The notes beneath the pieces were generated by a model that searched no databases, was not told the origin of the DNA, and was given only the letters and a program-made list of their open reading frames with translations. The position numbers and the translations under genes were made by a program. A DNA stretch of 64,000 bases from Watersipora subatra. Lineage: Eukaryota; Bryozoa; Gymnolaemata; Cheilostomatida; Watersiporidae. The stretch spans positions 22,967,344-23,031,343 of the forward strand of contig NC_088717.1 in the NCBI RefSeq assembly GCF_963576615.1, written 5' to 3'. Of this stretch, positions 9,831-50,321 are shown one piece after another (within the stretch, counting starts at the first letter, position 1; every line of letters starts with the position of its first letter).

Positions 9831-9831
9831 A

Positions 9832-11300
9832 ACTGGAGGTTATTTCACAAAATGGTTAGGCAGCGAAATGTACCAAACACTTAGTTGAAAGCTGTATTTG
9901 CAAGTGCCAATACTGACAAAAGCAAAACTGCTTCCGCTAGCTTGGAGGTCATCAATAATATACTGAAAAGGTCAAGTACGCTTGTGATCCAAACACTGGT
10001 CATGGGGCGTGCTGGTTCGGAGAAGCCACTGAGTTGGTGGCTACTGGTAACAGTAGTGAGCTAGATGCGGTGCCAGTTCGGGTAGACTCTCATTCCGGTT
10101 AAAGTACAATGGAGGCTATACCTATGAGGTCAAGCTTTGGAGTGGCTATTGTTTCAGGCAATGATCATCTGGTGGAGGAGTTTCACGGCTTGGACTGGGA
10201 AGCGCTTGCAGAAGTTCCCAGAGAAGCAAGACCAGGAGGGTAATGGCAGAAAAGAGTAAACCATTTACTGATGGCAACTTCATCAAATAATGGATAGTAC
10301 ACAGCAAATGACTTGTGCTCTGAGAGTCAATTTTTTTCAAGTATCAGCCTCCTAGCAAGTTTAGTAGTATTCACAATAGAAGAACTTGAAGCACATAATC
10401 TGCATAATTTTTTTATTAAATAGTTCAATACATCAGCCTTGCCTTTCAAATGAGCCTATATTCAATACACAAAGAATAATAGAACTATGAAAAACAGGAT
10501 AGCAAAAGTATGTCCTGCAATAAAAAACACTTGGTTGTGATTTCCACAATGTGATGTCATAATTATCATTTAGCCTTAAATCATGGATCCCTTTTGCTGC
10601 TGCCATTAAGGCTGTGCTTTTCTGTGACAATCGGTGCTGTTAATCACAGAGGGTAAAATATATAAACAATATATTTCGGCATAAATGACACTTGGACCAA
10701 TAATTGTTAAACCTAAAACAGTCATGTTTTGAGCTTGTTACTGATGGTAAGGGGTCTCAATATGATTTTCTGATTAAATTGCTTTGCATTCCTTTGGTGT
10801 TGTGAAATAAAAGAGTTACAGAAAGGATAATACTATTGAAATAATAAAAACCGGTGTTGATTTTTGTATCAAGTAATACTAAAATGCAATATCATAAATT
10901 AAATGTTTGATCATGGTTACTGATTAATTCACATATTATAACTAGAAATTCCACTGTCATACAGCCCACGACCAAAGTGATATTGGAAAAAAGAAAGGGT
11001 ACTGATGGTTGAGAAATGCAATATTAGCAGTCAAATAGGATAACTGCAATGGTAGCTGTAATGTACTGGGTGTTATTATATACAACAAATAGCAATAATG
11101 AAAGGAAAAGATTATGTGTTTATATCTCTCCTCCTGCAAAAAAAGAAATGCAATATTGGCCAATATTAGAAGTAAAATGCACTGATATTATTAGAATAAC
11201 CAATATTATTTATATAGTAATAATAAAAAACCAATGCACAATTTTGTTTACATTTCAAAACGGCATAGCTAACAATATCACGAAGTTGTGATATTTATAT
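9832..11300. other. Non-coding stretch
   Basis: I see no gene, RNA gene or clear element. Frames in this part are short and low in complexity. Confidence 0.4.
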
Positions 11301-18345: not shown

Positions 18346-18489
18346 TCATGCTTCTCCATGGTATCCAGGAAACAGGTAAAGTTTTCTTTGCCTCGTCAGT
18401 GTACTGAAGTCAAAAGGCATTTGACCATAACAGCTTCTTGGAAACTTGCCGGCTAGATCTTTTGTTTGGTTAGTAACATTTTCCCGAAT
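18346..18489 (-). CDS. Caspase small subunit, C-terminal exon with stop
   Basis: This 144-bp terminal exon has the acceptor TTTTTTGTAG and enters in phase 0. It encodes IRENVTNQTK through YGQMPFDFSTLTRQRKLYLF and stops five residues after PG. The QMP-x(3,4)-STL-x(3,4)-KLYF ending is the standard caspase C terminus. This closes the catalytic domain at about 283 residues, a normal length. Confidence 0.92.
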   Translation of the reverse strand: MRENVTNQTKDLAGKFPRSCYGQMPFDFSTLTRQRKLYLFPGYHGEA

Positions 18490-21400
18490 CTACAAAAAAC
18501 AGTGTGGGTAAAACAATGTTTTTTCTTTACTAGAGATTTGTTTTATTAGGAGATAAAGCAAAGACAGATACATTAAATACAATTACATGAGAATTGTAAA
18601 ATATATTTCAATCATACTGAAGGTCAAGTATGAGTTATTGCTGAATGTTAGAACTAGCATTTGCTTTGCAATGACTGCACAGCTACGTACGCTGATGATG
18701 GAGAACTTATGCACAATCTTTAGACCTTGACATTCATATACTCAAATTTCTATTATATAGCTTGCCATCTGATTATATAGCTGTGTATTTACACAATATT
18801 TCTCCAGTTTATTTCAGTCTTGTTATGTATTTAATGTATTTAAAAGTGATACACGATACAATTTCTGGAAAATGTTCCTATTACCAACAACCTAGGTAAA
18901 CCATGGTATGCTGAGTTGGACCTATCAGTGTATTTCATCCCAAGTAGTCCATGAAATAATGGTAATTTTTGCTGCTCAGTCCTTGCTGTAAAATCTTTAT
19001 TTGAATGGCATCCTTTACTTGACCACCACTTTGGCATTGTTGATCTTTACAAACCCATAATAGCAAGTGATCAGTAGAAAAGTGTCCACAAAATAATGCT
19101 AATAATGTCTCAGTTACATTATTTACAATCAATTATCTATTGGTTACTGTTCATATCTAACTCAAAAACTTATGAGATTCTTAAACTTTGAAAGCAACGC
19201 TATAAAAATAATTACTAACTGTATCAGGCTAATAGTAGTTTCCATTTACATTACAATTTCCAAAACCCATTTACAATTACGATGGATTTCATACTTCTAT
19301 TTTCAGACTATAACTTTTGCCTAGAGTGCGTGCAGCTTAATGTTTATCATTATTTTTGCGAAGCTTTCTAAATAGCAACACGAAAGAGTTTAGCTCTGCT
19401 ATAAAATGGGTTGAACAGCAATATAACCTAGTTTGAGAGAGCAGAAGAAGGGTTGAGGCAAGCAGGCACCGAAAAGTATTGAATAACCAAAAGAAGATGA
19501 AATGATTTCACATGAAAGCCACAATCAGAATTCTACTTGCCGAGCAAACGATGCAAATATTTTTGTTTTAAAAATGTTAATTTTGGTTTCGGCAAGTATA
19601 ATAAATATGGTTCATTTAAGTCACTTGTTCTTGAATATATATTTTTAGCATTTGATAGATTACAATTGTATAATTTATAAATTTATAGGCTTATATCATA
19701 TAATCGAAACTTGAATTACAATGGATCGACACTCATAATTATTTTGCTATTGCGCATGAAAAGCTAGTTTTGGCTGCAAACTGTAGCAAACATATTAATG
19801 AGTGCAATGAACTTTAGTCCAACATTGTTAAATATAGTTATAAAATAAAAACCATGTTTTCAAATTAAAAAAATTGAAAGCTCCAATAAACCGCAATGCA
19901 GTTTGTACGATAATTGTAAGTTATCGCAAGAAATAGAGAGGAACTGAGAGAGATATTTCTCAGTTTCTCATTGCATATTTATGAAGAGATCTATGACAAG
20001 CTGGATGTAAGTTATAGCAGGTTTATTGCATCAAAAACATTGAATTTTCTCAGCTTGAAAGAGGGTGGAAAATATAGATGACATTCACTTAGCCAGTAAA
20101 TGGGTAAAATTCAGCTTTCCAAAACAACTAAAATGCCAGCTCCATTTGAACATCACCTTTAATAAAATGCCACTACGGAGAAAGGGGTGAAAAATAGTGC
20201 GCCATGGCATTCAAATAGAGGTTTTACAGTAGTTACTTGAGGGTGATCGGGATGTCTTAATGCTTGAATAAATACAGCAAATGGCTCTTTACCTTTTCTT
20301 TGTGAGACAATCATACATATATAACTACTATTTGTTAATAGCAAATCCTGTGTGGCAACCTAACTCATGGCTCTAGGAGCTAAAGTGATGCGTATTTCTA
20401 GACAAGCAAACATAAAAACATTCCAACCTTGATAAATGTTAAAATATACTACAACTAGCCTTGCTACCCGGCATTGCCCGGGTAATAAAAAATCTTTGGA
20501 CAGAAAATTGATTTGTATTTAACATAGTTATAACAAAATTTGCCACTCTAGCATTCAAACTACATATCATGAAAAAAGGGTGTAATTTTGTGTAATTGAA
20601 ATAAATTAGGAGAGAAAATAAAACCAACTGTAAAGGTTTTCAAACTTTTTCAGACAACTGTAACTTTCAAACTTCATGTCACAAGTAAAAGGTTTTCAAA
20701 CCATTGTAAATTTAAAGGTTCATAACTTTCAGCGACGTAAAGCTTTTAATAACGTATTGTGGAACTTATTCTAGCGGAACTGTTCTAGCGTTGCTAACCG
20801 AGTTTTTCGAGATCCGAAATAATTTTTCACATTAAAATAAAATTATGTAGATTTTAATCCGTTCCAAGATGAAAGAAGCTTGGGTAAATTCAGATGTATA
20901 CTTTGATAATGTATTTTTGCAACATTTTGCACCATAAGCTGTACTGTACACTGGATACTATAAATAGAAATGGGTATATATAAATCGTGTTTAATTTTAA
21001 TAAAATGTTTTATATTTATGATGATGGAAAAATAAAGCAAAAGTAAACACTTTGTACGTTTGGCTCTTAAAACATCTAAAACATTAAAGGTTAAGATACA
21101 ATACTAAAATGCAAAAGTTTTTAATGAAACAGCAAAAAATGCAACTGATCGGTTACATCACAAATCCTAGGAAAAAGAAAATATAAACAGCAATGGCCTG
21201 TTTACTTTATTATCTTTAAAGGAGACTCATCCTCTAAAACAATTTAGGTAACTCGACTGGAAGGGCTATTTCCCTAGCAAATTTTTTCGGTAGAGGAGGC
21301 GTCATCCTCCATGGTTTCTCCCTTTTTGTAAAGAATTTATGAAGCGTAAAATGCTAATCCGTTTCCAAGCATTTCCGGAGCTTTGCTAGTTGCAATGCGC

Positions 21401-24400
21401 ATGCTCCAGTTTAGTCGAGAACCAAATTTATGTTTAAGCTCCGAGGCAAACAAATCTTAAAATCTTTGTTGAAAAACCCAAGGCTAAAATAATAGAGCAT
21501 GTGCATGTTGTATATTTTATATGAAAGCGTATCTGATCACTATGGCATTCTAGCTCAATGGTAGAGCATCCGGATAAAACACTCGTCAATGCAAAAATCG
21601 TTGTGAGTTCCAATCCATCAGAATGTGGAATACAAAGGTTTTAAGATCTATAGCCGGAAAACCGACAGATATACGATACACGACGACGGACGGACATACT
21701 TTGAGAAATATATAGATATTACAACTAATTCCATTAAGACAGTCAATGTTTTTCAGCTTTAATCTTCAAAGACAATACATACAACTATAATAGACCGACC
21801 CGGGTGTTTTAAGATGTCTATAGTCTTTAAATAGTTGTGAAATTTTTCTGGCAGAACAAATTCTAGTCAGTAATCTAATGACTCTTGTATCAACATTGAA
21901 TCATTTTTATCCATTGTAAACTCTCTCACAGCAACACAATTTAATTCATGATTTATTAGTCTTTAGTTTCCCTAGCAACAGAATATACATATAACTAGTA
22001 CATTTTAAGCACTGCATGAAAACTTTAAATAATTAGTTTAACATTTCATTTTAAATATTGCTAGTTCCTTTAACAATACTTTTTGAAAATGTACTGATTT
22101 CACTAAATGTCATACTTGCACAATGAATACAAATATAAGATTGGTGGACTCACTAATTTGAAGAGAGACTCGACATCAGTATCATGAGAATGCTTGTAGA
22201 ATCCATAAACCAGATTAGCAATCAGGAATGAACCTCGATCATCTCTTATAGATGCGTACACTGGAAGTATTTGATAACAGATACTTTCGCTAATGAAAAT
22301 AAACAAGATTATCAAGAAAAAGTAAAACTTGGTTATGCAGGATACATATCATTTCATGTGTACTACAATAGAAACCAGCTGACTTATAGCAGGGACAGCT
22401 AGATTGATGAGACAGCATGATGGTGAGTCAGGTAATACATGGAATGGGCAATGGGTGACTTGACCACAAATTAGGCGGCAGAGCCTTAAAGCCCGGTTCC
22501 CATATACGCCGCAAAGCACCGGCGACAGCGCCGTAGGCTATTGCAGTAAATTGGGAACCTACACGCCGCGGATCGCAGTGCACCGCCGGTGGATGCCGGC
22601 AGTCAACGCAAGAGTTTGCGCATGTTCAAATTTTGCAAACGGCCGCAGGCAAAACATTCCCGAAATGCACTATACGAGTAAAGGTCACCATTATAGGAAC
22701 GGCATGGCGAGCGAAAATTTTATTTGATTACATAATTACATTTTGATTACATTATTTGTTTACGATATTATTAACGATGTGGCTTTATGTGAACATATCC
22801 CGCAGAGCCTAGTGTCGCAAGCGTTTTACTGCGCATGTTACCGCCAGAGTCTAGCAATCGATATGGGAACCAGGCTTTAACTCTTTCGGGACGAATCACG
22901 TGAAAGCCCCTCAAACGGGCTATGTCTCAGAGGCCGAATCACGTAAAAGCCCGTTAGAAATCAGTCTACGGTAGACCTTTTTTAAAATATTTTATTTTTT
23001 AAGAAAATAACGTTTAAAAATAAAATTAATTATTTCATCAATTTCAGTAGGTTTTGTAGTAATGTTTTGAAACTGAAAAGTAATCCCTAATACGCATGTA
23101 CAAGAAGAACACGTTGCAAAAAATTGCTCTTCCTTTTTGGAAAGCTAGTCAACATGGACGGACGTGATTGCTCCAGCTCAGCCAAAAAAGTACGTTTAGA
23201 TGAAGACATCAACTGGTTCGAAAGTGAGGAAGAGGATATCAGGTCAGAAGAAAGTGGGGAAGACGATGCATGTGAAATAGAAGATCAACAGAGTGAATCT
23301 GATAGCGAAAATGAGAGTGAAACGGCCGGCGATGAAACAGGGAGTATTTACGGCTTTCAAAGAGGAGCCGACTTAAAACCCAAAGATTGCATTTTGATGA
23401 AAGCTTGGCAGGAGTAAACAGTCGAATTCCTGGACAGATAATTATTCTTGATAATTTAAAACTTTTTATCACATCGGCCATCATGAATGTAATAGTTAAC
23501 GAAACAAATAAATATGGCCTTCAAAATCATCGCGATGCCTGGGAGCCTGTCGATGACAAAGATATTTGGCGAGTTTTTGGTTTAGTTGTGCTCATGGGTA
23601 TTGTCAAAAAGCCTACTCTAAAATCTTACTGGTCTACCCGTCCCCATTTATCTACGTCAATATTTGGGAAAATAATTTCAAGAGACAGGTTTTTAACGAT
23701 TTTAAACTGTTTAAATTTCACTGACAACTCGGAAAACCCTGCTGGCAATAAATTGTTCAAGCTAGGCAATGTGTTATCTATGATATGTGAGTGGTTATCT
23801 TCTGTTTTACTGCCAGGTAAATTTATATCTATAGATGAAAACTTGCTGGCTTGGAAAGGACGGCTTAGCTTCAAACAGTATATTCCATCTAAAAGATCCA
23901 GATTTGGAATTAAGATATTTGCTCTCTGCGATGCTGTCTCTGGCTACGTGCACAAGCTGTCTGTATACATAGGTGATGAGCGAGAGCCAGCTGAAGGTAC
24001 CAGCAGAGGAGTCACCCACAATATAGTAATGAAGTTAATGAATGGTTTGCTGAATACAGGTCGTTGCTTATATATGGACAATTATTATAATTCGCCAGAG
24101 TTAGCTGCTGAACTTATAAAAAATAACACTCATGTTTGCGGAACTCTGCCTCCAAACAGAAAAGGTGTTCCTAAAGATTTAAAATTATGTAATGGAAAAA
24201 CTATTAAAAAAGGTGAAACAACGAGTTTTTCTAATGGTGATAGTATGGTTGGCTGTTGGAGAGATAAAAAATTTATTTGTGTAATTTCAACTATGCATAA
24301 AAACTTGGAAGTCGTAGATACAGGCAAAGTAAATTATAAAGGGGGTAAAATTTGCAAACCAGCTGCTATTTTGGATCACAACAAATACATGGGGGGAGTT

Positions 24401-27400
24401 GACAAATCAGATCAAAACTTGCATTATTATAACGCTGCGCGTAAAACCATGAAATGGTACAAAAAATTATTTTTTCACTTATTAGATATTTGTGTGTATA
24501 ATGCAGTCATAGTTTATAGAGTACATAGCGGCTGTAAAATAACTGACCTAGAGTTTCGAAATTAATTGAACAGATATTTGAATACACTGGATCTTGCCGC
24601 AAATACACTAGTTCCTGCGCTTCAACTTCTTCCCCTTATCGACTAGTGCTAAATAGTCCAGGAAAAAATAGAAAACCAAAATATAGAGTTTGTAAGTGCT
24701 GCTCAAGGCGAAATGATGACGGCACCCATAAACGAAGCGAAACTAAATTTAGATGCCTAGCATGTGGAGTATCTTTGTGCGAGTCATGTTTTATTCCTTA
24801 CCATGCTAGATAAATTTCTTTACAAATTGTAATTTATTTAGTTTTGGCAACTGTTTCATTGCTTTGTATTTTTAGCTTTTGTACATACATTTGCTGAAAT
24901 GTCATCTAGTCTATTGTATTTGTTCTGCATTGCATTGATATGTTGTATTTGTTCTGCATTGCATTGATATGTTGTATTTGTTGTCCATTGCCCTTTTCAG
25001 GGCAGCCAACTAATCAAAAGAGTTCAGTTCACATATTCTGCAATGTAGCAGATTGATTTCTCCATGATTTGCTGTGTCTGTTCATAATAAATGTTGCTTC
25101 TTGTCTGTTGCTGCTTCACCAAATGTGTGAATACAGGCTCACCACTCAATTCTTCTTGTACACAAACAGTTAATCTTTGCTGCAGCGCATATGAGTCTGT
25201 GCAATGAGTTGATATGCAAAATTGATACATATATAGCGTCAAGAAATACATAATAATAATTTGACAGCAAAAAATCATAACTGCAAACATATAGAGCACA
25301 AGATGCTAAGTTTTCACAAGCTGTCTAGAGGAAACAAACTCAGTCTGTAGAAAAATATCTCAGCTTTCAGATGCATATTCATTTGCAGCTTTATGCCAAA
25401 TTGCACGAGAGTTATAGCAAGGTTTGAGCTGCCTTGTTGGGCGACTGTTGCAGGGTTATCGACATGGCGTCACGAACATTTTGAAGGTCTTCACCCGCAA
25501 TGCACCGAAGCTCCTAATTCTACTTTTAATGCACTCAAACAATTTTTTTTTGCAAACTCTTGCAAACATATGACACTGTGCAGATGCTTATAATAAATCA
25601 TTTTCACAGAGTTATTGCTTTTAAAATTGTATTTGTTATCGATATTTTATGGAAAAAGAAGTAAAAACTTGGAGAAATTAATAATTTGTCAAAAGTAATC
25701 ACAGACTATTTCCAGGAAATTATTGGCTGCCTGTTGAGAAATTTCTAAGCTGTCCAATGCATATTAATTTATAGCTCCATGTCAATTTGCATGCAAGTTA
25801 TTGCGATTTTTAGGCGGCCATGTCAGGCCTTCAATTTTTGCTTGTCTTATAGGTCGCGTACTGAGAATTTTGAGGGGCGCTCCTGTAATGTATCGGAGCT
25901 CATAACTTTACTTTCAAAGCCCTTAGATGACCAATTTTTTTTGCAAACTGTTGTGAACCTATGAATCCTTGCAAGTAGTATTTGTACAACATTGTCAATT
26001 ATTCGTATCAATTTGGAAAATGCAATGAAAGTTGGCACATGAAAATAAAAAAATCATCTCTTCAACAAATTGACACGTTTGCTGGAAAGCATTTGCAAGC
26101 TAATTGCATGCAAAAACAATGAGCTTGTAGAATAATTTCTCAGCTTTCTCATGCATGTTGATTTATGCCACTACTGCAGTTGTGATGTAAGTCACTGCAG
26201 TTTTTATGCAGTCATGTCGAAGGGTCAAATCGCCCTAGTAATTGCCCCCGTCAGCTGGTACTTTCCAAGCCGTAAGCCGACCGTCGCTAAAGGGTTAAAG
26301 CCTGCTACTGTATTAAAAATCCAGATTTGCCATCTGATACATTCTGACATACATTCTGATATATGGAATTGGCCATCAGAAACTATATAAATGACAAGGA
26401 TTCATCATCAAAGGCAGAAGTAGTTACAGTTTTCTTATAAATTATTTATATCTTAAAGTGCTATTAAATGCAAATTTATCCATCAAACTTCACCTAGAAG
26501 TTATTATCATGTACATTGGTGTGGTGAAGTAGAGGGTCGAGTTGACTTCTTTTACATTACTTTATATAAAGTACTGATTCACTCACTCATTCATTTGGTT
26601 ATTCATTCATTTATTCATTGATTCACTTATAATTCTTATCTGTACATTTTCCAATACTCCTTCATTCTCTTGTCTACTTAGTGTGTAGTGTCGAGCTTGT
26701 ACAAAGTATTTTCATAATGTAATATATTTTATATCATGCACCACTTTGAAGGGTTCAGAGAATTTAACACTAGTTATGGTTAGTTGCTGAATACTTTTTC
26801 TTATCAATGAACTATGCAGTCGCAGTAGCAATTTTATCTCAAATCCTTAAAGAAAAAGCATGCATCCTTAAACCCTTCAACAACTACATGTATATCGTAG
26901 TCTTTAATTGAATCTGTCACTTACTGTTAAAGCTAGCCTTGATCACAATCAAATCTTCCATGCTGAGATGTTTGATGGTACGATCTGATGTTGGGGGATC
27001 TCTGGAACGTACAGTTCGTGATTCTGTAAAATTTACTTGTTGGAAAGGCCAAGGGTGTTGTGCATCAACTACTTGTGATGCGACTACCAAACGATTGTCA
27101 TGCTGTTCTCCAAAGTCTTTTAGGACTGTAAACAAATATGAACTGGTAAATCATTCTCTTCTGTCTGAAATGCATCTAGTATGTTATTTGGTTTCAATAG
27201 ATTAATTATTTGAACTTTGTGCTTTTATTACATTTATATAAAAGTCTTACATCCAGCACACGCTTGAACAATCACCATCTTGGGTTTCCCAGCCATATGT
27301 CGGAACCGCTGGGGAGATAACAGGAAGTAGACATCATCGAGTTTGATCAAATTAAAATCACTTCCGCTTATCTGGTCATTCTCCTGCCCATGACTCATAA

Positions 27401-30400
27401 TCACAAGAGCAAACATGCCATAGTCTTCCATTTCCCTGTTTTGGGTCACTGACTCCACTGCGTCCAACATTTCCTGCACCAGAATAAGCAGCGAGCGTGT
27501 AACCTTTCAAAAACATCTAACGCTTGTCTCATTTTCCTACATGTCCGCCTCTCTGGATTTCCGTTGAGCTATGAAATATTCTTAATTAACTAAATGTGAA
27601 TAAAAACTGCTTTAAACTGATGAAAACTATTGAGGTGAAGAATTAAGCCCTTAGATTAGAATCTATTCTTTCGTGTAGAGACTTCTCTGGAGTTCAAGCT
27701 CCTAGAGGGCTTCTCCATTGCTTCACTTTTGGTCAATAATTAATACACATCAATTATTGTTCCATCAAAAAGTACTTCTAAAATTGCTAACTAACCGTTT
27801 CATTTAATGCGGAATATTTAAGTATGTCAATTCATTATTTAAAGTGTAATGAAGTATTTCGGTAAAAAATGTTTTATTTGAATTATTAATGCAGTTTACT
27901 CTAAGGCTTATCTGATAATTTAGTGAGTGAATCAATTTTAAAAAATCAATTCAATATTTCAATTATTAATGCGCAAATTTGACAAAAAAATTTGGTAATT
28001 TAATGCATAGTTTAATTTAATCACTGTTTAATTCATTAATTTGATTATAAATGCTAATATTTTACAACTTAATTTGTTAATTTACTGCATATTTATATTT
28101 GAACATGAATTAACTTGTTAATTTAATTTTTAACAGCATTGTTTTTAAAGTTAATGTGTTAATTTAATATATAAGTGGAGCAAAAACTAATCCATCTAAA
28201 TACAATTCTATATATTTAAATAAAAATTCTATACATTTATATAAATATTCTCTACATTTATATACATGTTCTATGTGGCTAATAGTGTCTTGTTAATACA
28301 TAATTGTGTTTGTAAGAAATAAGCAATAACTTATTCAATTGTAAACACAATTTAACAGCCAGAGTTGTAAACAATGATCTTAGAGGTAATTTGAATTTTA
28401 TACTATAAACTAATCTGATCAATATCTAATGATGGAACTTAAATCAGAAGACACAAATCAGTCAATTATTAGCAGAAGTAAGCTTGTGGCACACTGGGAA
28501 ATCTAGCTATTAGAGAGTTGTGTTCTCACAAACTGTACACCAGAAAAAAGACTGTTCAGCAGTGCTGGGCAGATTTTTAGGCCAGAAAAATGTAATTTAG
28601 GAGATGACACATTCAAAATGTTAATCAATTACCATAACAATTAGTGTTACTATTACCAGATCTAAATTGTTACAATTTAATTATTATATGAATATATAAC
28701 TTTTAACCATAGTTTACCCTGCCAGATGAACTTTTTCGCAGAGTTAAATTTCGTGAAAGTTGTCTTGTTATGCGTATCCGTGGACTAAATTATTGGCGGA
28801 TGAAGACATTCACAAACAAATTAATCTGTAAAAGCAGCTAGCAATAAAGTAAAACCTCCATGTGTGTATTTCACGTGTTTAGGTTTCTATTTAGCTAAGG
28901 AATTTATGTCGATCATGCTAAACTATACATTTTTGGCTGTATCTCGAGGTTTCCATGAATGTTCATCGATTTGGAGGCTTTTGGTGAACCAAAAAATTGT
29001 GGTAAGTTATGAGTTTTTTCACCGTAAATAATTGCAGAAAATATTTTTTTTCGATGATGACCCCGCATCGAACTCCGAATAACTTGTGCCAACCTTGAAC
29101 AATTCTGTAAAGAAGTGTGAAACATTGGCAATGAGCTTAACTCAAAGCCCCAGCGATGATTTAAATTTTTTTTAGAACTCAGCTACGTTTACTAACTCTG
29201 CCTAGCGGCTAGTTTTTAATTTTAGGTGGTAGTTATTCTCCCTTGCGTTAAAAAATAAAACTAATTATTCACGAATTTTAAAACTTTGCAGATTTAACTG
29301 CACGCGAACTTGTGAATTACTAAATTCATCAAATATTTTCATATTGCAGGGTATAATCTATATTGATTTTTTCCGAATATTTATTTTATATTTTTAACAC
29401 TAATTTTGGTTTGGCAAATCTATAGCCACTGTCCGGAACTGTGGTTAGTCCTATTTAGTGTTTTAATTGGGCCTTATATTTGCTAAGCCATGTTTATTAA
29501 GTTCTTCTGTGGTTACCAATCTCTGGGGCCAGGGCCAAGAAGACTGCTGACGCTAAGGTGAAGGACGAAAGGACCAAGCCGAGACCACTACCGGGTAAAC
29601 AACACGGCCTTCGGTCGGCTAAGGGTTGCGGACACGACCCTCGGTAATGCTTCCGGTCGGCTAAGGGTCATCTGTCAATTTGGCCCTACAACCAAGGGGC
29701 AGACCAAGCCAGGAGCTATATATGCCACAGAAGCGATCAATAGCAGAGCACCTGAAAGTCTCACACTATGCAGTTGGTTACATGCATATGTTTATTGAAT
29801 GTTTGACTGTAACTTTGTATGCGTAAATGTCTAATATGTCTAATAAAAGTATTTGCACATGAAGTTTATTTTACTTAACATATAACAACAGTTAACATTC
29901 TAACTTTCAAACTTCATATGAGAAAAGGGTTTTGTACAATTTAAATAAATTAAGAGAAAAGATAAAAACCGTGGAAAAGATTTTCAAACTTTTTCAAACG
30001 ACTGTAACTTTCAAAATTCATATCATGAGGAAACGTTTAGTGTAGGCCAAATAAATTAAGAAACAAAATAAAACAACTATAAAAGTGTTCAAATGTAAAG
30101 GTGAAATAATTAACAAGTAATGGCTAAACTAAATCTGCTTGGCTAAGATAAAAATAAAAGATGATTTGGGAATGATACAATTAAAATGAACTGAAAAAAC
30201 TAAATAAAAATCCTGATTACATTGAATTAATAATAACAATTTGTGCATAGAAGTGTGTGTGTATAAAAAGGTTAGTGTTCCAGCAGAAGCTATCCATTGA
30301 AACTTTGAATAGGATGATACTGATACCTCTCGATAATGGTACAAATGTAAAAATGAGATATCGAACTGTCTTTCTGTCTAGTACTTTGTCTGACCGAACG

Positions 30401-33400
30401 GGGAGAGAATGTAGGGGCTATCCAAACTTGACAATAAAATTGTCAGCAAGAAAAGTATTAGCCTTTACTGATTTAGCAATCAAACTTTACAAAAATCTGG
30501 AAATAAAAGTTTAACCCACATTTGAAATTGAAATAGAACATTAAAAAATTACGAATTTAAAAAATAGGTGATAGCAGCAAAAAATGAATTTTTAAACAAT
30601 TTCAAGAAACAGCAAATGCAAATGCATTGATTAATAATCAAAAGTACACATTTGTCGTGAATTTTTGCACTGTGTGCGTGTAGATATGGTATATAATAAG
30701 AGTAATGGAACGCTAAAGACTGTATAGCTCAGTGGTAAAGTGTGTGGTTTGAAACTTATAATCTGTTGCAATCTCAGTGAGTTCAAATATAGCCTGCAGC
30801 AAGCTTTTTATTCCAAGATATTAATAGCTACAAGTGGGCTGGCAGATGTCTAAACATACGACGACAAACTTTGAGATTTATATATTAATATATATATATA
30901 TATACATATATATACATACATATATATACACACATATATATTATATATACACAATATATACAGTGTGTATATAGTGATATGATGAAGATATGATATGATG
31001 AAGCACATATGTGCCTCAGTTGGTGCAAAAAAAGTTGAAAATAATTCACAACATGAAATGAAAACTTAATGCATAGTTTAATTTCGTTGCAACTATGGCT
31101 AACTAATACAATTATTAGTGAGATTATTGATTGAAATAAATTTGGTATTCTAATGGATAAATTAATTTATTACTATAATTTGTAATGCGAATATTTTTCA
31201 GCTACACATAATGTGATAATTCAATGAATAATTTAGTTTTTATACTGAATTTAACTAATTCCATTATTAATGCAATTGTTTTGGAAACTAAGTGGCTGCA
31301 ATTAGTTTTCAATGCAGTGGTGAAACTAATTTGACAATTTAATGAAAAGTTCAACTACATGTCAAATTTAATTATCAATGCATTATTTGTTTGACAAGCT
31401 TAATAATTCAAAGTTTAATTAGTTTTATACCAAAGTTAATTTGTTAACTTAATTATTAAAGAAAGAAGTTTCATAATTAACCTATAATTTAATGCATAAC
31501 TGAATTTAGACATAAAATAATTTGTTATCTCAATAATAATGCAAGTTCACAAACCCAAAATAGGTTAATTGAACCAGTGATGCAATCTTAAACTGTTAAT
31601 AAAGTATTAATTTAATCAGTAATGCAATCTTAAACTGTTAATAAATTATTAATTTAATCAGTAATGTAATCTTAAACTGTTAATAAATTATTAATTTACT
31701 CGGTAATGTAATCTTAAACCGTTAATAAATTATTAATTTAATCAGTAATGTAATCCTAAACTGCCAATAGATTACTACTTTAATAGCAATTTCTACCATC
31801 AGCCCAACCCTGGCTCAAGCATACCAGGTGTTCAACTGAATCACAAAAGAGATAGATCACACTCATAAAACATAGGTCTTGATTACCTACAACACAGGTG
31901 TCAATCAGATGGCCCGCGGGCCACATGTGGCCCGGCCCGTCATTTTATGTGGCCCGCGAGAGCTTAACTCATTCGCACCTGACCGGAGTTAACGCCCGTA
32001 TTTATAATGTTGCTAGGCACCCAACGAGAGTTATCTTACTTCTGAAATTTATCTATTCCTTGTAACGTTATTTTTAAGTTACATAATAATAATTTTGATT
32101 AGTCAGAAAGAAAGTTTTCTGGCTAAAAAAACAAACTTACAAATATGCCTCAATGATGTCTCTGGCTAAAGTTATAACTAGAGTACGACTCATATTTTGA
32201 CATCTGCTAAACCGAAAATCATCACGGCACATTAAAATTTATCGTTCGAGATCATTTTTTTCAACTCCAGAAGTAGATATGCAGATTCAGAAGAGGTAAT
32301 TCAGTGAGACTGCATAAATCAAATTGAAACATTATTTTTAATGTTTCAAAGTTTTTTTTAACTTTTAATTTAATCAATTCAAATCGTTATGCTCGAATAA
32401 AAATGCACATTTTAAGCTGTCACTCAAAGTCAAACTAAAGTTATTATTCAATCTCGATAGGATCATATTGATTCTTAGATTAATTTAAACAGTAATGTAA
32501 TGTTAAACTGTTAATAAATTATTAATTCAATCATTAATGTAATCCTAAACTGCCAATAAATCACTACTTCAATAGCAATTTCTACCATCAGCCCAACCCT
32601 GGCTCAAGCATACTAACTGTTCAACTGTATCAAAAAAGATAGATCACACTCACAAAACACAAGCCCTGATCGCTTATAAGATGTTACATGCATTTGGTAA
32701 GCTGTGCGACAAAAGAATAGAAATAGACACCTCCAAATAACAACATGATTTCCTATTAACCCTAGCTGTTCCTGACAATTGTGTCAGTAGTCTTGGTTAA
32801 ATTGTCCAACAATAGGAAGGCTTAAAACTTCTTAAATATATCTAAATACGCTCATAATTCAACTCGCAACAACGCATGGCAAACGTCACCAAATCCAAAA
32901 AAATGTTTTCACAGTTCGTCAGGTTGAAACCATAAAAATTCGCACAACTTAAAAAAAAGCGTCTAAGTCTTTACAGTTGCATCATATCTATCAATCACAT
33001 GTTCATCATCATTTTATTACTCAAAATAATCAGCCAAATTATAGTTTGTCTCATAAAAATCTTCATCTGCATCATCATCTGCATCCATGACATACAAACA
33101 AACAGGTCATATCAATTTTTTTCACGACATCGTCCTAGTGGAATTATTATTACGATGAAGGAAGTAAATAAATATATTTGCAAACGATTGAAAATGGAAG
33201 CAAAATTTCTGGTTTAACACCCGCCGCAAGAATTAATTTGATTGGTTCACACTGTCACTTAAAAACAGCATTTGTAAACAGATGTGTGGATGCCGGTATT
33301 CCGCCTGCTAGGGATTCTGACGCCCTATGCGATGCCACACCCTAGATAAGCTGGAATACAAGTTGTTAAGGTTCAAAGGGTTAACAAACAATTATGAAAA

Positions 33401-36400
33401 ACATAGATTTGATATCATACCTTGCTAGTTAGATTTTCTCTTGTTTCAACATCAAAATGGAGATGACCAAACATTTCCTGCATATGTTTAACATCTTGCT
33501 CTGATCCATGTCTGTAAGATGTCTCTCCATGAACATCATGGAACTCATTGTTGTTGATTATCAGCACTCTTCCTCGAGGGTTTGTCATCTTGTAGACCTG
33601 AGAGAGACTTACTAAATTATTGACCAAAAACTCATAGTAGAGATATTTATGATTATATAATGTTGAAAAATGTATGTAGATTAATTCCAAAGCTAGTTAT
33701 TTAATATGTTATCTTGAAAGCAATATATTTAACAAACAATGAGCACATATACAATTCTGACTACCTTAACAGGGTTGAATATTAGCTATAGCTACAATAA
33801 GATAGTAACTGCAGTAGTGAATATAGCACATGTAGTACTAAATCACTTGTACTACATATAAAATAGAGCTTTCAGTGAATGGATGAAAGAGATAAATGTA
33901 AAAGCTAAAAATAGATTTAAAACCACTACAAATATTTGAGTCCTATAAATAACTTTATTATCTTACAAAAAACCTTCAAAAATATTATCTTCTCGAAAAT
34001 CTGAATATTTTATTTCAAATAGTCAAACAAATGAGAATTTAAATTACTAATTGATACTATTTTAGTAATATATAGTTTATAACATAATTCAGGTACTTGC
34101 CGCGTCGGTGTTGTGGAACAAGTCTTTGATCTCTGCTTTATTTGTATAAGTCGGGCTGCCATCAGAGATAGCTTTACATACATCAACAAATGATAGGCCT
34201 ATCAGACTAGGGCTTCCATTGAAAGCAGAAGGGCGGGAAGAAGTAGTGCATGGTTGAATGATGCAAGACACTAAAACAAATAGAAGGGTAGATTTTTACA
34301 ACTTTTACACAATGACATACATGTAGTTACTACTTGTAGAAATAAGATTTAAAGAACTAGAATATGTCATCTTGCTATGATAATAAAAATGAACCTACTC
34401 AGTATTCTCTATGAAAGATTATTATTCAATAGTCTTTATTATCATAATAATAATACAACTTTATAAAAAGCCAGCGTGATTGGTTTAACTGAACAATGTT
34501 GTTAATGTAGGAAATCTGCCACATATGAATGCTAACCTGATGCTGTGGCTGTTTGTTTTGCTGACACGTATTCCTTGAGTTTCCTTTTCTTATCCTCTGA
34601 CAAAGGCTGACCTTCAAACAAAGTCAGAAATTAGTTGTATATCTTGTTTTTGAGTTGAATATAATCAAGTAGCAGAAATATTTACACTTACTTGGAAACT
34701 TGAAGACTGAAGACACAATTTCCCCGGTACATACTACATCTCTCATCTTTATGTCTCTAGGGTCTGGCTGCGCGCGTGAAAGAAGACTCCAAAAAGGATT
34801 GACGACCTTTTTTGGGTGCTGCTGACCAGTTAGTCTGCAGTGGGCGCAGTAAAAAATGCATACCAACGGAGTTGCTCTCCAGGTTTCTCGTAGATGTTTA
34901 ATGGCCACGTTGACAGTTTCTTTGAGATAGTTCCACGCTTCATAAAATTCTTCCACGTTAAAAGCAACAGTGGCTGTTATCTTTCCTGCTTTAGCATCGT
35001 GGGTAAAGTGAACTCGGGATTTATCAACTGCAATTGATACACCATTGTGATGCACGAGAGGTGTATTGTACGAGTCAGAGTACAGCTCCAAAAGCCTCAC
35101 TGTCAGCTCATGAAACACATACTGTGGAAGTGCCAATCCTTTACACAAAATATCTGTCTGAAACTGTAAGTCAAGCTTCGTCGTAGGCAAGGTTGATTGA
35201 AACCCTTGAGCAAAATGAGGAACTATGAATTTGGAATCGTCAATCGAGAGAGAACCAAACAAAATACGAAATTTTGAAAGAATTGCCAATGCCACCTTTT
35301 GCTCATCATCTCCAATAAATGCTGTCTCAGTTTTTATTAGGTAAGCCAGCAGCACCAAGCTGATCACTCCGGTGGCTTTAAACTGGCTCACAGACTCCTC
35401 AAACTCTTCTTCGCACAAAGGCCCAGTTTGAAATTTGCAGCTTTTGAAGTTTTCTCTTCGCTTGTCCCACTTGGAATCACCATCATGGTCATACAAGACA
35501 TTTAGCAAGTCTGTAACAGCAGATATCTTGTGGAAGACATGTTGATCTAGACCCTCAATGTCGTTGTACCAAAGAAGCTTACCACTCAGATGCAAGTATT
35601 TGATTATCACCTCTAGCTGCTTCTTTACAACACCATGTGACCCATGAACGTTGTCAAGCAGCGATTCAAAAGTAGTGAAATGTGACTTTAGAGTACTCAT
35701 CACATCTTCCACTTGTTTCCACAGTCGAGGCACCTCCGTGACATATCGTTGGCTTTGCTCCAACAGCTGAGCCCTCAGTCTTGTGAACTCGTCTGAATAT
35801 TCACGTCCTACTTCGAAAATCCTTTCTGGGGTGAACAGGTCTGTGTCTGCTCCAAAGCTTTTAATGCGGCAAAAATTTGCTTCCTCAAGTTGATTCTCTT
35901 CATCTCGAATCTCATTGCGTACTCCGTTGCAATATTGTAAAAGCTTCGTTTTTCCTGCTTCAAACTTTTCTTCATCCAATAAATCTTTGTGGGTCAATAC
36001 GAGAGCCGGGGGTAGCATGTTCGGATGCGCTATGTAAAGATGGGCCATCCAGTCGAAGAAAAGAGCTCGAACAGACATTTTTGGCCCAACTCTCTCCGAT
36101 TCTTTTACATACATATCCATATTGACTACCACGACTGGGATGCAATTTTCTCTGAGGGTCAGCCTATACGCGTGGTGGTAGATTTCTTGCCCTCCAAAGT
36201 CAATAAAATACAGAGATCTTTCACCAAATGAAACTTTTTCAAAGTTGAATACTTTTGTAGAAATTTGTTCTGGGGAGCTCAAATTTTCAGTTAGAATTCG
36301 TGACCCTTTCTGCATAGTCTTGATTAGACTGGTTTTGCCTGATCTGGATTGACCAATAACTGCAACAGTTGCAGATATCATCTTCTCCTTTCCTCCTGCC

Positions 36401-36661
36401 AGATCTTTGTAGTACTGCTGTATTGCAGAAACACCTTGCCATGCAACAATCCAAGGAGGGTTTTGTAGTGAGGCACAATCTACTAGCCACAAGTATCGTA
36501 GGTTGCTCAAAGATAGAATTTGAGAGCCAAGAGCAATTAGATTGTAATTGTATGTAAGATCCAGTGTGACCAGCTCCTTCAGCTCCCCTATCTCTGGAGG
36601 CAGTTTGTCAATTTTATTTGAGGAAAGGTTGAGATCTTTGAGCATCTTCAGTTTGCCAACA
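18346..36661 (-). CDS. LRR-Roc-COR GTPase fused to a caspase (eight exons placed, 5' end missing)
   Basis: Eight exons can be chained on the minus strand: 36661-34692, 34611-34537, 34270-34101, 33597-33421, 27473-27251, 27125-26925, 22260-22154 and 18489-18346. Each junction has a splice consensus and the codon phases agree across all seven introns, giving about 1,021 residues to a stop at 18,346-18,348. Domain order is LRR end, Roc GTPase, COR, a linker of about 80 residues, then caspase p20 and p10. All caspase key residues are visible: Arg in YRHGSEQD, His in MSHGQ, Cys in QACAG, Arg in ASIRDDRGS. The best resemblance for the caspase part is caspase-8 (VYKM..PRG.VLIINN). In known families the prodomain is CARD or DED; here a ROCO module takes its place. 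More LRR exons must lie upstream, but I did not find them. One junction uses a GC donor. The domains are solid; the fusion is inferred from phase and order. Confidence 0.8.
18490..20453. repeat. Intron sequence with an inverted dispersed repeat
   Basis: This is part of the last caspase intron. Sequence at about 19,530-19,870 is the reverse of 14,009-14,420, and 20,115-20,235 carries the CAAATAGAGG-type end also seen near 15,050. No exon is visible. Confidence 0.45.
20454..21720 (+). repeat. Long dispersed repeat with a tRNA-like block, copy 1
   Basis: It begins with a CTACCCGGCATTGCCCGGGT palindrome. The middle contains TTTTCAAACTTTTTCAGACA- and GTAACTTTCAAACTTCAT-type text. A tRNA-like block at about 21,545-21,620 has the A box TAGCTCAATGGTAGAGC and the B box GAGTTCCAATCC. 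The 3' end is CGACGACGG...CTTTGAGAAATATATAGAT. Copies at 29.9-30.9 kb and 39.4-41.4 kb have the same order of parts, so the tRNA-like part belongs to the unit. It lies in the last caspase intron. Confidence 0.6.
22154..22260 (-). CDS. Caspase small subunit core exon
   Basis: This 107-bp exon has the acceptor AATACTTCCAG and the donor GTGAGT. It reads YASIRDDRGSFLIANLVYGF and on to DTDVESLFKL. ASIRDDRGSFLI is the small-subunit signature (S-x-R-x-x-x-GS-x-F-I in the family), including the second S1-pocket arginine. The incoming base from the previous exon completes the first codon; the exit is phase 0. The gap to the previous exon is 4.7 kb and contains a piggyBac element and a MITE. Confidence 0.9.
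22490..22876. mobile_element. 387-bp MITE with TTAA target duplication
   Basis: TTAA at 22,486-22,489 and at 22,877-22,880 flank inverted ends of about 15-16 bp: AGCCCGGTTCCCATAT on the left, and ATATGGGAACCAGGCT on the right. The interior is GC-richer than its surroundings and non-coding. TTAA duplications are typical of the piggyBac superfamily. Its right TTAA is also the left TTAA of the piggyBac element next door. Confidence 0.75.
22881..26294 (+). mobile_element. piggyBac element inside a caspase intron
   Basis: TTAA lies at 22,877-22,880 and 26,295-26,298. The left end CTCTTTCGGGACG and the complement of the right end, CCCTTTAGCGACG, agree at 10 of 13 positions, and a piggyBac transposase lies within. 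No TTAA with a matching end occurs nearer to the transposase stop. The last kilobase contains three diverged copies of a ~350-bp unit (about 25,310, 25,690 and 26,050), recognisable by CAGCTTT, ATGCATATT and TTGCAAAC. A related piece lies near 19,960. The right boundary is less certain than the left. Confidence 0.55.
23154..24813 (+). pseudogene. piggyBac transposase with two frameshifts
   Basis: The start is taken at the ATG at 23,154 (MDGRDCSSSAKKVRLDED), followed by the acidic N terminus usual in the family. The catalytic core lies at 23,387-24,565, where all three aspartates of the DDD triad are visible: SIDE (residue 150 of that frame), LYMDNYY (231) and GGVDKSD (339). The cysteine-rich C-terminal domain (CKCCSRRNDDG, CLACGVSLCESC) continues to a stop at 24,811-24,813. 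The acidic part and the core are in different frames (shift near 23,390-23,415), as are the core and the Cys-rich tail (shift near 24,560). Otherwise the frame is open, so the copy is young but probably inactive. It lies opposite to the host gene. Confidence 0.88.
26925..27125 (-). CDS. Caspase inter-subunit linker and start of the small subunit
   Basis: This 201-bp exon has an acceptor ending TTTACAG and the donor GTAAGTG, with one base carried in and one out. It encodes the linker after the active site, with several Asp residues (for example PPTSDR and SMED) that could be cleavage points, and then MEDLIVIKASFN. That last part matches the strand that opens the small subunit (D-x-L-x-x-x-A/S). 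The piggyBac element sits in the intron that follows. Confidence 0.88.
27251..27473 (-). CDS. Caspase large subunit, catalytic His and Cys exon
   Basis: This 223-bp exon has the acceptor ATTCTGGTGCAG and the donor GTAAGA. It carries ALVIMSHGQEND with the catalytic histidine at exon residue 28, the block HMAGKPKMVIVQACAG with the catalytic cysteine at residue 72, and a GSD segment as in other caspases. The active-site pentapeptide is QACAG rather than the commoner QACRG, QACQG or QACGG; the fourth position varies among real caspases. AGKPK before the active site again matches caspase-8. One base carries over to the next exon. Confidence 0.94.
27474..29507. other. Left part of the 5.9-kb caspase intron
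   Basis: AT-rich and without exons that I can recognise. From about 27,880 to 28,160 it is dominated by irregular TTAATTTGTTAATTTA-like repeats, which resume at about 31,040-31,560. Confidence 0.5.
29508..29889 (+). repeat. Possible solo LTR
   Basis: This GC-richer block begins TGTGGTTACC and ends AACAACA, so it has TG...CA ends. It contains a TATA-like GCTATATATGCC near 29,720 and an AATAAAA signal near 29,840, in the order expected of an LTR. No matching second LTR, coding part or clean target duplication was found. Confidence 0.35.
29890..30890 (+). repeat. Long dispersed repeat with a tRNA-like block, copy 2
   Basis: Related to 20,454-21,720 and 39,390-41,410. It shares CTTTCAAACTTCATATGAG-type text, the tract AGTGTGTGTGTATAAAAAGG and TGATACTGATACCTC-type text with copy 3. 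The tRNA-like block at about 30,720-30,795 has the A box TAGCTCAGTGGTAAAGTG and the weaker B box GAGTTCAAATATAGCC. The tail is ACTTTGAGATTTATATAT, followed by a TA/CA microsatellite to about 30,965. Confidence 0.6.
31567..31760. repeat. Short tandem array, ~42-bp unit, about four copies
   Basis: The unit contains TTAAACTGTTAATAAATTAT followed by TAATTTAATCAGTAATG. The array and the sequence after it (to about 31,890) are partly repeated at 32,470-32,680. Confidence 0.7.
31740..32680. repeat. ~150-bp direct repeats flanking a hAT-like fragment
   Basis: About 31,740-31,890 and 32,525-32,670 are close direct copies; both contain ATCAGCCCAACCCTGGCTCA. Between them, 31,893-31,975 has the GGCCCGCGGGCCACATGTGG block that many hAT-type non-autonomous elements carry near their ends. 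The other hAT end is not found. A TTAA-bounded stretch (31,974 to 33,384) may overlap this, but its end similarity is weak. Confidence 0.45.
32681..33420. other. Intron remainder, non-coding
   Basis: This is the last part of the 5.9-kb intron before the first caspase exon (read on the minus strand). No gene or clear repeat is seen apart from the TTAA at 33,381-33,384. Confidence 0.4.
33421..33597 (-). CDS. Caspase large subunit, first exon
   Basis: This 177-bp phase-0 exon has the acceptor CTCTCTCAG and the donor GTATGA. It starts VYKMTNPRGRVLIINNNEF, which lines up with the opening of the caspase-8 large subunit (VYQMKSKPRGYCLIINN). The segment YRHGSEQDVKHMQEMFGHL carries the p20 arginine of the aspartate (S1) pocket and the usual R-x-G-x-x-x-D pattern. 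It ends ENLTSK and continues in the exon at 27,473 without a frame change. The intron after it is 5.9 kb. Confidence 0.93.
34101..34270 (-). CDS. Linker exon 2, pre-caspase segment
   Basis: This 170-bp exon follows the acceptor TTTGTTTTAG. It encodes a Ser/Thr/Pro-containing segment and ends in FHNTDA. The only donor that keeps the caspase frame is a GC donor, GACGCG|GCAAGT. The GT five bases further on would shift the frame. GC-AG introns are a known minor class with exactly this strong consensus. The segment occupies the place where initiator caspases have the linker before the large subunit. The Asp in NTDA could be a processing site, but that is inference. Confidence 0.65.
34537..34611 (-). 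CDS. Linker exon 1 between ROCO and caspase
   Basis: This 75-bp exon lies between the acceptor TTTGAAG and the donor GTTAGC. It reads SQPLSEDKKRKLKEYVSAKQ and a few more residues, a charged and probably helical linker. One base carries in and one base carries out, which fits both neighbours. The first codon is completed by the last base of the ROCO exon. No known domain is visible. Confidence 0.7.
34692..36661 (-). CDS. ROCO exon: LRR end, Roc GTPase, COR
   Basis: One 1,970-bp exon, entered through the acceptor TTATGTTGCAG and left through the donor GTAAGTG. It opens with about two LRRs (LKDLNLSSNKIDKLPPEIG). Counting from its first Met, the Roc GTPase has a P-loop GQSRSGKTS at residues 98-106, a switch II DFGGQE at 149-154 and THKD in place of NKxD at 218-221. 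A COR region follows from about residue 290, with KYLHLSGKLLWYNDIEGL near its start, and a cysteine-containing tail ends the exon. MFHAS1-type LRR-Roc-COR proteins are the nearest relatives I recognise. The Roc domain binds GTP and COR mediates dimerisation in the family. No kinase or ankyrin part is seen. The exon ends mid-codon (one base), which matches the next exon. Confidence 0.92.
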
Positions 36662-37820: not shown

Positions 37821-38377
37821 ATGGTATTGCGGGAAATCATCAAACAACAGATTTTAATGGCAGTGTACCAGAAAAGGTATGTCGTAAACTCGACAAAGTC
37901 ATTTGCAGAAGCTGCAACAACACTAATTTCCAAATCAGCAAAACCAATAAAAATATTCTCTATCTCAAAAGATAAGATGACTGAAACAGCGCAGATCTGC
38001 AAAGAAATCAGGTCCATGGTGCCTCTAATCCATGGCATTCCATCATGCCATCGCATAGCAACTAAAAAAGATAGTGACGTTGTTCTGATGGAACGGTGTC
38101 CTTCCCCTGGCAGCCATTTCCACATACACAGAGCAGCGAACCTAATCAAGAGGTAGCCACAAGAGGTATTTCACAAACTCCAACGCAGTTTTCACCACAA
38201 ATGCTGGTCGCATTGGCCTATGACTCTGTTGTCAACATTGGAGAAATGCTCATAGCGGAAGCCAACAAAAGTATCTACACTATAAAGTACATGCGCGGTG
38301 AACGCAAGAAGTTCATGTGGCCAAACCCCAATGACAAAAAACTACCTAGACAAACTTTCTTTTTAAAGCATCTCTAG
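37821..38377 (+). pseudogene. Unassigned decayed reading frame
   Basis: Two overlapping plus-strand frames (37,821-38,156 and 38,096-38,377) stay open for longer than their surroundings. The second has a protein-like composition, with VNIGEMLIAEANKSIYTIKY and RGERKKFMWPNPNDKKLPRQ. They look like one ancestral coding stretch split by a frameshift near 38,100-38,150. I do not recognise the family. A dispersed element or processed copy is more likely than a living gene, as there is no start or splice context. Confidence 0.35.
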
Positions 38378-43884: not shown

Positions 43885-44200
43885 TCTATGCTTACAATTT
43901 CGCGAAAATGAATTTCGCGAAATTACACATATATATTATATAGTCAACTTTCGCGAAATTGGATTTCGCGAAATTTCACATTATATATATTATATAGTCA
44001 ACTTTCGCGAAATTGAATTTCGCGAAAAGTGAATTTCGCGAAATTGGATTTCGCGAAATTTCACATCATATATATTATATAGTCAACTTTCGCGAAATTG
44101 AATTTCGCGAAAAGTGAATTTCGCGAAATTGGATTTCGCGAACTTTCACATCATATATTATATAGTCAACTTTCGCGAAATTCAATTTCGCGAAAATCTG
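43885..44200. promoter_or_regulatory. Cluster of 14 TTTCGCGAAA-type palindromes, element 1
   Basis: Fourteen copies of TTCGCGAA sit about 17 bp apart in pairs or fours, separated by TATATATTATATAGTCAAC-type spacers. The cluster is just upstream of the cysteine-rich gene (minus strand). TATA-like boxes point both ways (ACTATATAAGCATTG at about 44,255 on plus; CTTTATAAAAGC at about 43,810 on minus). The palindrome matches the E2F-type core TTTCGCG. A bidirectional promoter or an iteron-like origin would both fit. Confidence 0.65.
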
Positions 44201-45462: not shown

Positions 45463-45464
45463 CC

Positions 45465-46808: not shown

Positions 46809-46883
46809 CTTTCACTATTGATGTATGTCAATGAAATGAACTAAAAAATATTGAGATAATAATATATAAAGCATTTTCAAATT

Positions 46884-48025: not shown

Positions 48026-48052
48026 TGAAGTTCAATTCCTTATCATCCTCTT

Positions 48053-49971: not shown

Positions 49972-49986
49972 CTTCCTGCTGAATGA

Positions 49987-50208: not shown

Positions 50209-50321
50209 ATGAGGTAAAGCAGAACTTGCAAGTTCATCGGTAAGACTGTTCAGTATTTGCAGAATTACTCTGTTTTTTTTTCATTCTCTTAGAAAGTGGA
50301 GAATTATCCATGATAACTTAA

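Follow-up and report, generated by a model that had tools for sequence, protein, structure and literature searches.

A candidate Roco-caspase gene on chromosome 10

The 64,000-nucleotide stretch analyzed here (the window) comes from Watersipora subatra, a bryozoan, where it occupies positions 22,967,344-23,031,343 of chromosome 10; it carries, on its minus strand, a candidate gene that joins the end of a leucine-rich repeat (LRR)-Roc-COR protein to a caspase catalytic domain. A preliminary description had proposed eight phase-consistent exons; all eight are present, and their join runs in frame through 1,021 residues with no frame break. Exon A (34692..36661, minus strand, like all exons below) encodes the last LRRs (~36660-36466), the Roc GTPase with its P-loop GQSRSGKT (36354-36331), the COR domain, and a CxxC motif, as judged from Pfam, alignment, and the fold of a paralogue; the motifs DFGGQ and THKD were also read in the alignment. 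Two linker exons follow, namely, exon B (34537..34611), a 75-base in-phase cassette, and exon C (34101..34270), the 3' end of which encodes the pre-caspase motif KAEIKDLFHNTDA. Exon B aligns with the linker of fused paralogues, as does the motif. The caspase part comprises exon D (33421..33597), with the start of p20 (VYKMTNPRGRVLIINN) and the pocket arginine in RHGSEQD; exon E (27251..27473), with the catalytic histidine in MSHG (27392-27390) and the catalytic cysteine in QACAG (27260-27258); exon F (26925..27125), with a p20/p10 linker containing several aspartate residues and the p10 start; exon G (22154..22260), with p10 sequence (YASIRDDRGSF); and exon H (18346..18489), with the p10 end (KLYLFPG) and a TGA stop codon (18348-18346).

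All seven introns end in AG acceptors and begin with GT donors, except for one GC donor (GCAAGT, minus strand, 34099..34100) at the junction between the Roco part and the caspase part. The three junctions singled out in the preliminary description (34,692/34,611, 34,537/34,270, and 34,101/33,597) are correct, the third being a GC-AG junction, which that description did not mention. Two other splice sites were tried and rejected: a GT four bases past the GC donor shifts the caspase out of frame, and an exon G acceptor at position 22289 breaks the frame, while that at 22260 keeps the phase. If the GC donor is left unused, reading continues through three residues (AST) into an in-frame stop codon (34089..34091, minus strand), 3' of which lies an AATAAA (34009..34014, minus strand), a possible poly(A) signal for a predicted Roco-only transcript. 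Exons F and G are separated by an intron that contains a transposase region on the plus strand (23336-24562; Pfam PF13843, DDE_Tnp_1_7; E value, 1.6e-90), which we take to be of the piggyBac type.

The joined protein matched Peptidase_C14 over nearly the full profile (Pfam; E value, 8.8e-37; profile positions 1-230 of 233) and carries the caspase signatures MSHG, QACAG, RHGSEQD, and YASIRD. The catalytic histidine and cysteine are spaced by 44 residues, compared with 43 or 44 in seven fused paralogues, and both residues, together with the p20 pocket arginine, were present in all eight fused proteins compared. The earlier claim of a complete catalytic domain is thereby upheld: by prediction, the gene codes for a complete caspase (Peptidase C14A) domain, a class defined by proteolytic activity after aspartate. 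The label “caspase-8-like” found no support, as by sequence the nearest solved relatives of this part were CED-3 and caspase-3, followed by Caspase Nc, caspase-9, and caspase-6, and caspase-8 was absent from the best 60 of 180 and the best 60 of 208 matches. The VYxM sequence at the start of p20 presumably resembles that of caspase-8/10.

The Roc domain passed the Pfam cutoff of 27 bits both in exon A (28.5 bits) and in the joined protein (27.6 bits). COR comes directly after Roc in the window protein, an assignment supported by the fold of the paralogue P0001 (P numbers denote database protein models). The domain order LRR-Roc-COR-caspase is thus borne out at the DNA level. At an E value of 0.01, Pfam detected no CARD or DED in the joined protein, P0001, P0002, P0003, or P0005, and no NACHT or NB-ARC in the window protein, in which the NTPase is Roc. 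Roc-COR occupies the place of the CARD or DED prodomain of an initiator caspase.

Copies on chromosome 10 and fused database models

Chromosome 10 has 17 matches to exon C, and one of these is a partial repeat within another copy. In all 15 copies other than the window gene, a Roc-COR exon, exon C, and exon D follow one another in this order on a single strand, and exon B is also present in 14 of them. Counting the window gene, an open exon B was identified in 15 of 16 copies, and exons C and D were open in 16 of 16. One copy, L013, has an indel near the exon A start, and 561 Roc-COR residues can be read in it without a stop. The same order of Roc-COR exon end, exon C, and exon D was recognized at four further loci, on C8, C3, C9, and C6, where the junctions were read by eye; exon B was seen at three of the four, and so was exon E. 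In P0003, P0027, P0030, and P0031, the segment that separates COR from the caspase can be aligned with exon B and the terminal part of exon C, and the bridging exons are therefore part of a fusion and not intergenic noise.

Among the matches listed by protein searches, 11 named W. subatra proteins carry Peptidase_C14. Seven of these (P0001, P0003, P0027, P0030, P0031, P0036, and P0037) run from the LRRs through well into p10; P0002 and P0038 lack the front part, and P0005 and P0029 end early in the caspase. The fused models are spread over several chromosomes. An acidic linker motif, approximately SD(L/V/I)SDvExEGYCDE, precedes the caspase in P0001, P0003, P0027, P0030, P0036, and P0037; it is weak in P0031 and unrecognizable in the clade of the window gene and may be a cleavage or docking site. 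Outside W. subatra, no named protein with both Roc-COR and a caspase was found among the matches listed (527, 7992, and 7993 candidates scored), in searches that depend on shared five-residue words, so that distant cases can escape.

Roc-COR exons are paired with caspase exons across the genome

We then examined the spacing of Roc-COR and caspase exons genome-wide, scoring 78 of 183 Roc-COR candidates and, for the caspase, 150 of 494 and 150 of 274 candidates, so that all totals are lower bounds. For 77 of the 78 scored Roc-COR exons, the same strand bears a caspase exon no more than 20 kb downstream. Within the same distance, none of the 78 has a caspase exon upstream or on the opposite strand, and extending the distance to 30 kb yielded one upstream. 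Searches alone paired 75 of 78; random shifts of the caspase positions gave on average 8.0 and at most 17 of 78, and a strand flip gave 0. With the Pfam list alone, 51 of the 78 exons had a partner inside 20 kb (control, 3.9 on average and 9 at most); a second caspase search raised this number from 51 to 75, and the exons D seen in L014 and L017 raised it from 75 to 77. Chance joining of unrelated exons was rejected on the basis of these counts, since 77 of 78 greatly exceeds the shifted-control maximum of 17 of 78.

The same data bear on whether LRR-Roc-COR and caspase are two genes that merely lie next to each other. Several models, among them P0010, P0006, and P0008, have been drawn without a caspase, and an ATG in exon D (within VYKM) could start a bare caspase. 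On the other hand, exons B and C contain no in-frame ATG, as read from their sequence, and align with the linker of fused models, and adjacency of separate genes is hard to square with the same-strand pairing of 77 of 78 exons or with fused models on several chromosomes. We consider two adjacent genes highly improbable. A fusion carried by one multigene family that includes the window gene and numbers no fewer than 77 Roc-COR-to-caspase loci in W. subatra, at least 1 of them decayed, is the reading that we hold to be probable.

We counted 177 caspase exon clusters, a rough figure that may split or merge genes, and 82 of them lie no more than 20 kb downstream of a listed Roc-COR exon. Dense caspase matches were observed at 13.0-19.2 Mb of C9 and 36.7-40.2 Mb of C6, where 29 and 19 clusters, respectively, are unpaired; these may be further fusions, outside the set of 78 Roc-COR exons that were scored, or a separate caspase expansion. 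Published caspase counts (PMC3196919) are 45 for amphioxus, 31 for sea urchin, 17 for Hydra, and 12 for human, against the rough 177 clusters in W. subatra.

A GC splice donor at the linker-caspase junction

The donor GCAAGT at the linker-caspase junction is present in 16 of 16 chromosome-10 copies, while the four loci on C8, C3, C9, and C6 have a GT donor there, as judged by eye. The read-through stop at the fourth codon is likewise found in 16 of 16 copies, and at least one AATAAA lies within 200 bases past the stop in 14 of 16, at a varying position. In addition, the end of exon B in L016 carries a second GC donor (TAG/GCAAGC), showing that GC donors recur in the chromosome-10 clade.

Database models of individual copies differ at this junction. 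P0005, whose sequence matches copy L023, employs the GC-AG splice and skips exon B. P0009 (copy L025) takes the GT four bases later, leaves the caspase frame, and joins elsewhere. P0006 (copy L021) and P0008 (copy L016) leave the GC donor unspliced and terminate three residues on. Transcripts that end after COR, named in the preliminary description as counterevidence to a fusion, may thus be reflected in part in the models P0010, which stops inside COR, P0006, P0008, and P0009.

This pattern could reflect a splice switch between Roco-only and Roco-caspase products, or it could reflect descent of duplicates combined with predictors that miss GC donors. Under the first alternative, the GC donor would be used part-time, so that the gene would mostly yield a Roco-only protein that ends in AST and serves as a decoy or regulator, with a Roco-caspase protein produced when splicing is raised, making the caspase optional. 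The invariance of the donor and the stop in the chromosome-10 copies, the frequent nearby AATAAA, the GT at other-clade loci, and the exact coincidence of the ends of P0006 and P0008 with the read-through, set beside the spliced P0005, are all in keeping with such a switch. The copies are close duplicates, however, and their common sequence may be mere descent. Gene predictors can overlook GC donors, and such oversight would yield identical truncated models; moreover, P0009 takes a different donor, and the GC donor is missing from all four loci of other clades. We regard a splice switch as possible but doubtful and continue to favor the fused product.

Selection, phylogeny, and predicted fold

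Pooled pairwise ratios of nonsynonymous to synonymous substitution rates (dN/dS), uncorrected for relatedness, were 0.36 for exon A, 0.24 for exon B, 0.33 for exon C, and 0.41 for exon D, with 11, 11, 10, and 11 of the 16 copies used, respectively; L012, L013, L019, L020, and L022 were left out everywhere, and L018 was left out for exon C, because of indels or stops. The ratios of exons B and C point to purifying selection on the linker exons. Within exon A, the LRR part (the first 95 codons) had a dN/dS of 0.75, compared with 0.28 for Roc and 0.31 for COR, and this elevated value would be as expected for a sensor or recognition surface. Large LRR families with such values suit allorecognition as well as immunity, and bryozoans are colonial animals. 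That the fusion serves developmental cell death or colony self/non-self recognition, not antimicrobial defense, nevertheless strikes us as rather unlikely.

In the eight fused proteins, Roc-COR distances and caspase distances agreed (Mantel r, 0.86; 3 of 5000 permutations were equally high). Each of the two trees grouped the window protein with P0031, with support values of 0.98 and 0.99 and long branches; P0001, P0027, and P0037 were placed differently between the trees, with a support of 0.03 for one node. On balance, these results favor one fusion event with later duplication over several independent joinings.

The structure model of P0001 had a mean predicted local distance difference test (pLDDT) score of 76.7. 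The predicted LRR-Roc-COR fold matches that of CtRoco, and the Roc-COR fold matches those of LRRK1 and LRRK2; the LRRs (residues 1-252) dominate the list of structural matches, so that the caspase part was barely probed. Residues 835-900, which correspond to the linker, had a pLDDT of less than 50.

Evidence for and against a working receptor

Several observations weigh against the reading of the window gene as a complete and functional fusion. At the level of domains, COR-A reached 22.8 bits in the joined protein, below the Pfam cutoff of 35.3, and LRR families also stayed under their cutoffs (LRR_14, 34.4 versus 40; LRR_8, 25.9 versus 27), because exon A holds just the last repeats. Some relatives have altered switch-II residues in the alignment (DYAGH and DYGGN), and GTP hydrolysis may therefore differ between family members. 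In the P0001 model, two stretches of the caspase (residues 1026-1079 and 1139-1176) had a pLDDT of less than 50. Among the chromosome-10 copies, the Roc-COR exon of L020 is decayed and exon A of L019 contains a stop, and exon E lay inside the fetched stretches for L012 and L024 only.

The database models and the caspase counts add to this side. Seventeen W. subatra Roco models are listed without a caspase assignment, P0010 included, although three of them (P0054, P0040, and P0050) break off in the linker or at the p20 start; the read-through ends of P0006 and P0008 belong here as well. P0010 is the model of the window gene itself, with 100% identity to the window Roc-COR over 76% of the query region; this protein of 638 amino acids has 103 bases removed inside COR and stops there, without a caspase. 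Of the 177 caspase clusters, 95 lack a listed Roc-COR exon in the 20 kb that precede them, and many W. subatra caspases may therefore be unfused, a number inflated in part because 78 of 183 Roc-COR candidates were scored. Finally, the preliminary description had suggested looking upstream for the missing LRR exons, and a tblastn search of the upstream part of the window found none.

The form of P0010 and the lack of LRR exons in that search raise the possibility that the window copy is damaged or marginal, having lost its LRR exons, acquired a new first exon, and come to make a truncated Roco protein only, so that the family would be real and this member would not be a working receptor. P0010 opens with an exon (37869..38056, minus strand) of 62 residues that joins the Roc-COR exon in phase, does not look like an LRR by eye, and is doubtful as a true start; its open reading frame (ORF) had no Pfam match. 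Together with the splice inside COR, the fruitless upstream search, and the repeats and piggyBac-type transposase in and around the gene, this exon speaks for decay. The eight exons are nonetheless open, the splice sites are usable, and the catalytic residues are intact, and we think a damaged copy possible, if not favored. Our preference remains a single gene that, as read from the DNA, encodes LRR-Roc-COR-linker-caspase in one polypeptide working as a one-piece cytosolic receptor, and we judge this to be likely, with appreciable room for error.

Other features of the window

Outside the gene, the window contains several repeats and mobile elements. A Polinton/adintovirus-like block, which we take to be a Polinton, spans 44896-51510 on the minus strand, with an integrase with a chromodomain (48059-49150) and a weak Adeno_IVa2-type ATPase (50833-51510); the large ORFs at 45471-46811 and 47270-48031 in this block had no Pfam match. 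At 8001-10000, a block of 55% GC stands in a region of 34-36% GC, and a reverse transcriptase (PF00078; 8819-9304, minus strand), presumably Gypsy-like, lies within it. A 68 bp satellite of about 52 copies occupies 54770-58332; it is G-poor on the plus strand, with a GC skew of -0.44 at 56001-58000, and is followed by 110-bp arrays (58332-59909). Two arrays of a palindrome unit, TTTCGCGAAA, with 15-bp and 81-85-bp periods, are located 17 kb apart at 43898-44196 and 61114-61303.

Proposed mechanism and relation to known systems

At the DNA level, the covalent linkage of the domains, the intact catalytic residues, and the conserved switch are established. The steps that follow, from ligand and dimer to protease activation and cell death, are inferred from known Roco behavior and from caspases activated by induced proximity. 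The LRRs would meet a ligand, and binding would shift the GTPase cycle of Roc, changing the COR-mediated monomer/dimer state. Two C-terminal caspase domains, each on a linker that in a paralogue was modeled with low confidence, would then be brought together and activated, and the active caspases would cut themselves and further substrates, leading to cell death or a defense response. In this way, the covalent link in the fusion would take over the CARD/DED adaptor step of an inflammasome or apoptosome. Artificial fusion of caspase catalytic domains to dimerizing domains is cited as causing activation by dimerization (PMC2575513). The bacterial Roco protein CtRoco is mainly monomeric when GTP bound and dimeric when nucleotide free (PMC6337361), and the on-state may therefore follow GTP hydrolysis or loss and not GTP loading.

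NLR inflammasomes and the Apaf-1 apoptosome combine a sensor, a nucleoside triphosphate (NTP) switch, and activation of caspases by induced proximity, and the W. subatra fusion resembles them in its proposed working. It differs from them in having no Pfam match to NACHT, NB-ARC, CARD, or DED and in joining sensor and protease covalently. LRRK1 and LRRK2 likewise place a catalytic effector after LRR-Roc-COR, but the effector is a kinase in these proteins and a caspase in W. subatra. Many of the W. subatra models are named MFHAS1 homologs by NCBI, and MFHAS1 has the LRR-Roc-COR order in common with the window family; MFHAS1 itself is described as LRR-Roc-COR alone, in contrast to the caspase-bearing family, and the assignment of the models to MFHAS1 is by database name. 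MFHAS1 genes are described as restricted to deuterostomes (PMC4104024), and the label on W. subatra models may therefore be automatic. The oligomeric state of MFHAS1 is influenced by nucleotide (PMC6337361).

LRR-Roc-COR is reported to be ancient and widespread, and other Roco proteins bear kinases, TIR, or a brown algal peptidase (PMC11378527). Brown algae have an expanded LRR-Roco family of proposed immune receptors, in which the three members of ROCO group 3 carry Roc-COR and a C-terminal peptidase, IPR009003 (PMC11378527). The group 3 peptidase thus differs from that of W. subatra, which is a caspase. We take IPR009003 to denote a trypsin-like peptidase. The Lingula Roco protein P0034 carries PF00619, presumably a CARD. 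In placozoans, CARD and death domains are part of Roco genes (PMC4104024). In the placozoan and Lingula proteins, Roc-COR is wired to a cell-death adaptor domain, whereas the W. subatra family carries the protease instead.

The nearest reported architecture appears to be that of the amphioxus hybrids, in which LRR or TNFR domains are joined to a caspase (PMC2575513). As in W. subatra, a receptor-type domain sits directly on a caspase with a QACxG site, and the authors proposed a shortcut from recognition to death (PMC2575513). A possible difference is the GTPase, as the text on the hybrids gave no hits for GTPase or Roc (PMC2575513). The earlier statement that no established family has this domain order stands, in that neither open-access papers nor protein searches yielded one: the open-access literature contained no description of Roc-COR joined to a caspase, and none was found in the available parts of reviews of Roco proteins, bacterial conflict systems, and immune repertoires (PMC6337361, PMC7159879, PMC4316618, PMC8195603, PMC9334734, PMC11378527, and PMC4104024). 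The W. subatra genome paper reports a genome of 783.70 Mb, a chromosome 10 of 61.08 Mb, and RNA sequencing (PMC12902671); the accessible text of this paper and that of the Flustra genome paper (PMC13326412) each gave no hits for “caspase” and “immun”. Six Toll-like receptors (TLRs) were reported in Membranipora and none was found in a Bugula transcriptome (PMC8609888). A general account in which bryozoans lack TLRs therefore finds no support.

We also considered, as a tentative and rather doubtful extension, that W. subatra has dozens to more than 100 one-polypeptide LRR-GTPase-caspase receptors, in which the LRRs vary while the switch and the executioner are conserved, that this arrangement is the rule among the 78 scored exons, that the receptors form an intracellular immune or self-recognition class, and that the fixed GC donor of the chromosome-10 clade decides whether the protease is attached. 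With an LRR sensor, a GTP switch of the type present in LRRK2, the Parkinson's protein, and a protease, one molecule could sense a trigger and launch the killing step. If the proposed working is true, the fusion would amount to a naturally occurring “apoptosome in one chain”, with the GTP cycle in direct control of a caspase. It would also supply a protease readout for Roco monomer/dimer switching, which is still debated for LRRK2 (PMC6337361), and the family would constitute a lophotrochozoan receptor repertoire that bypasses the usual adaptor domains.

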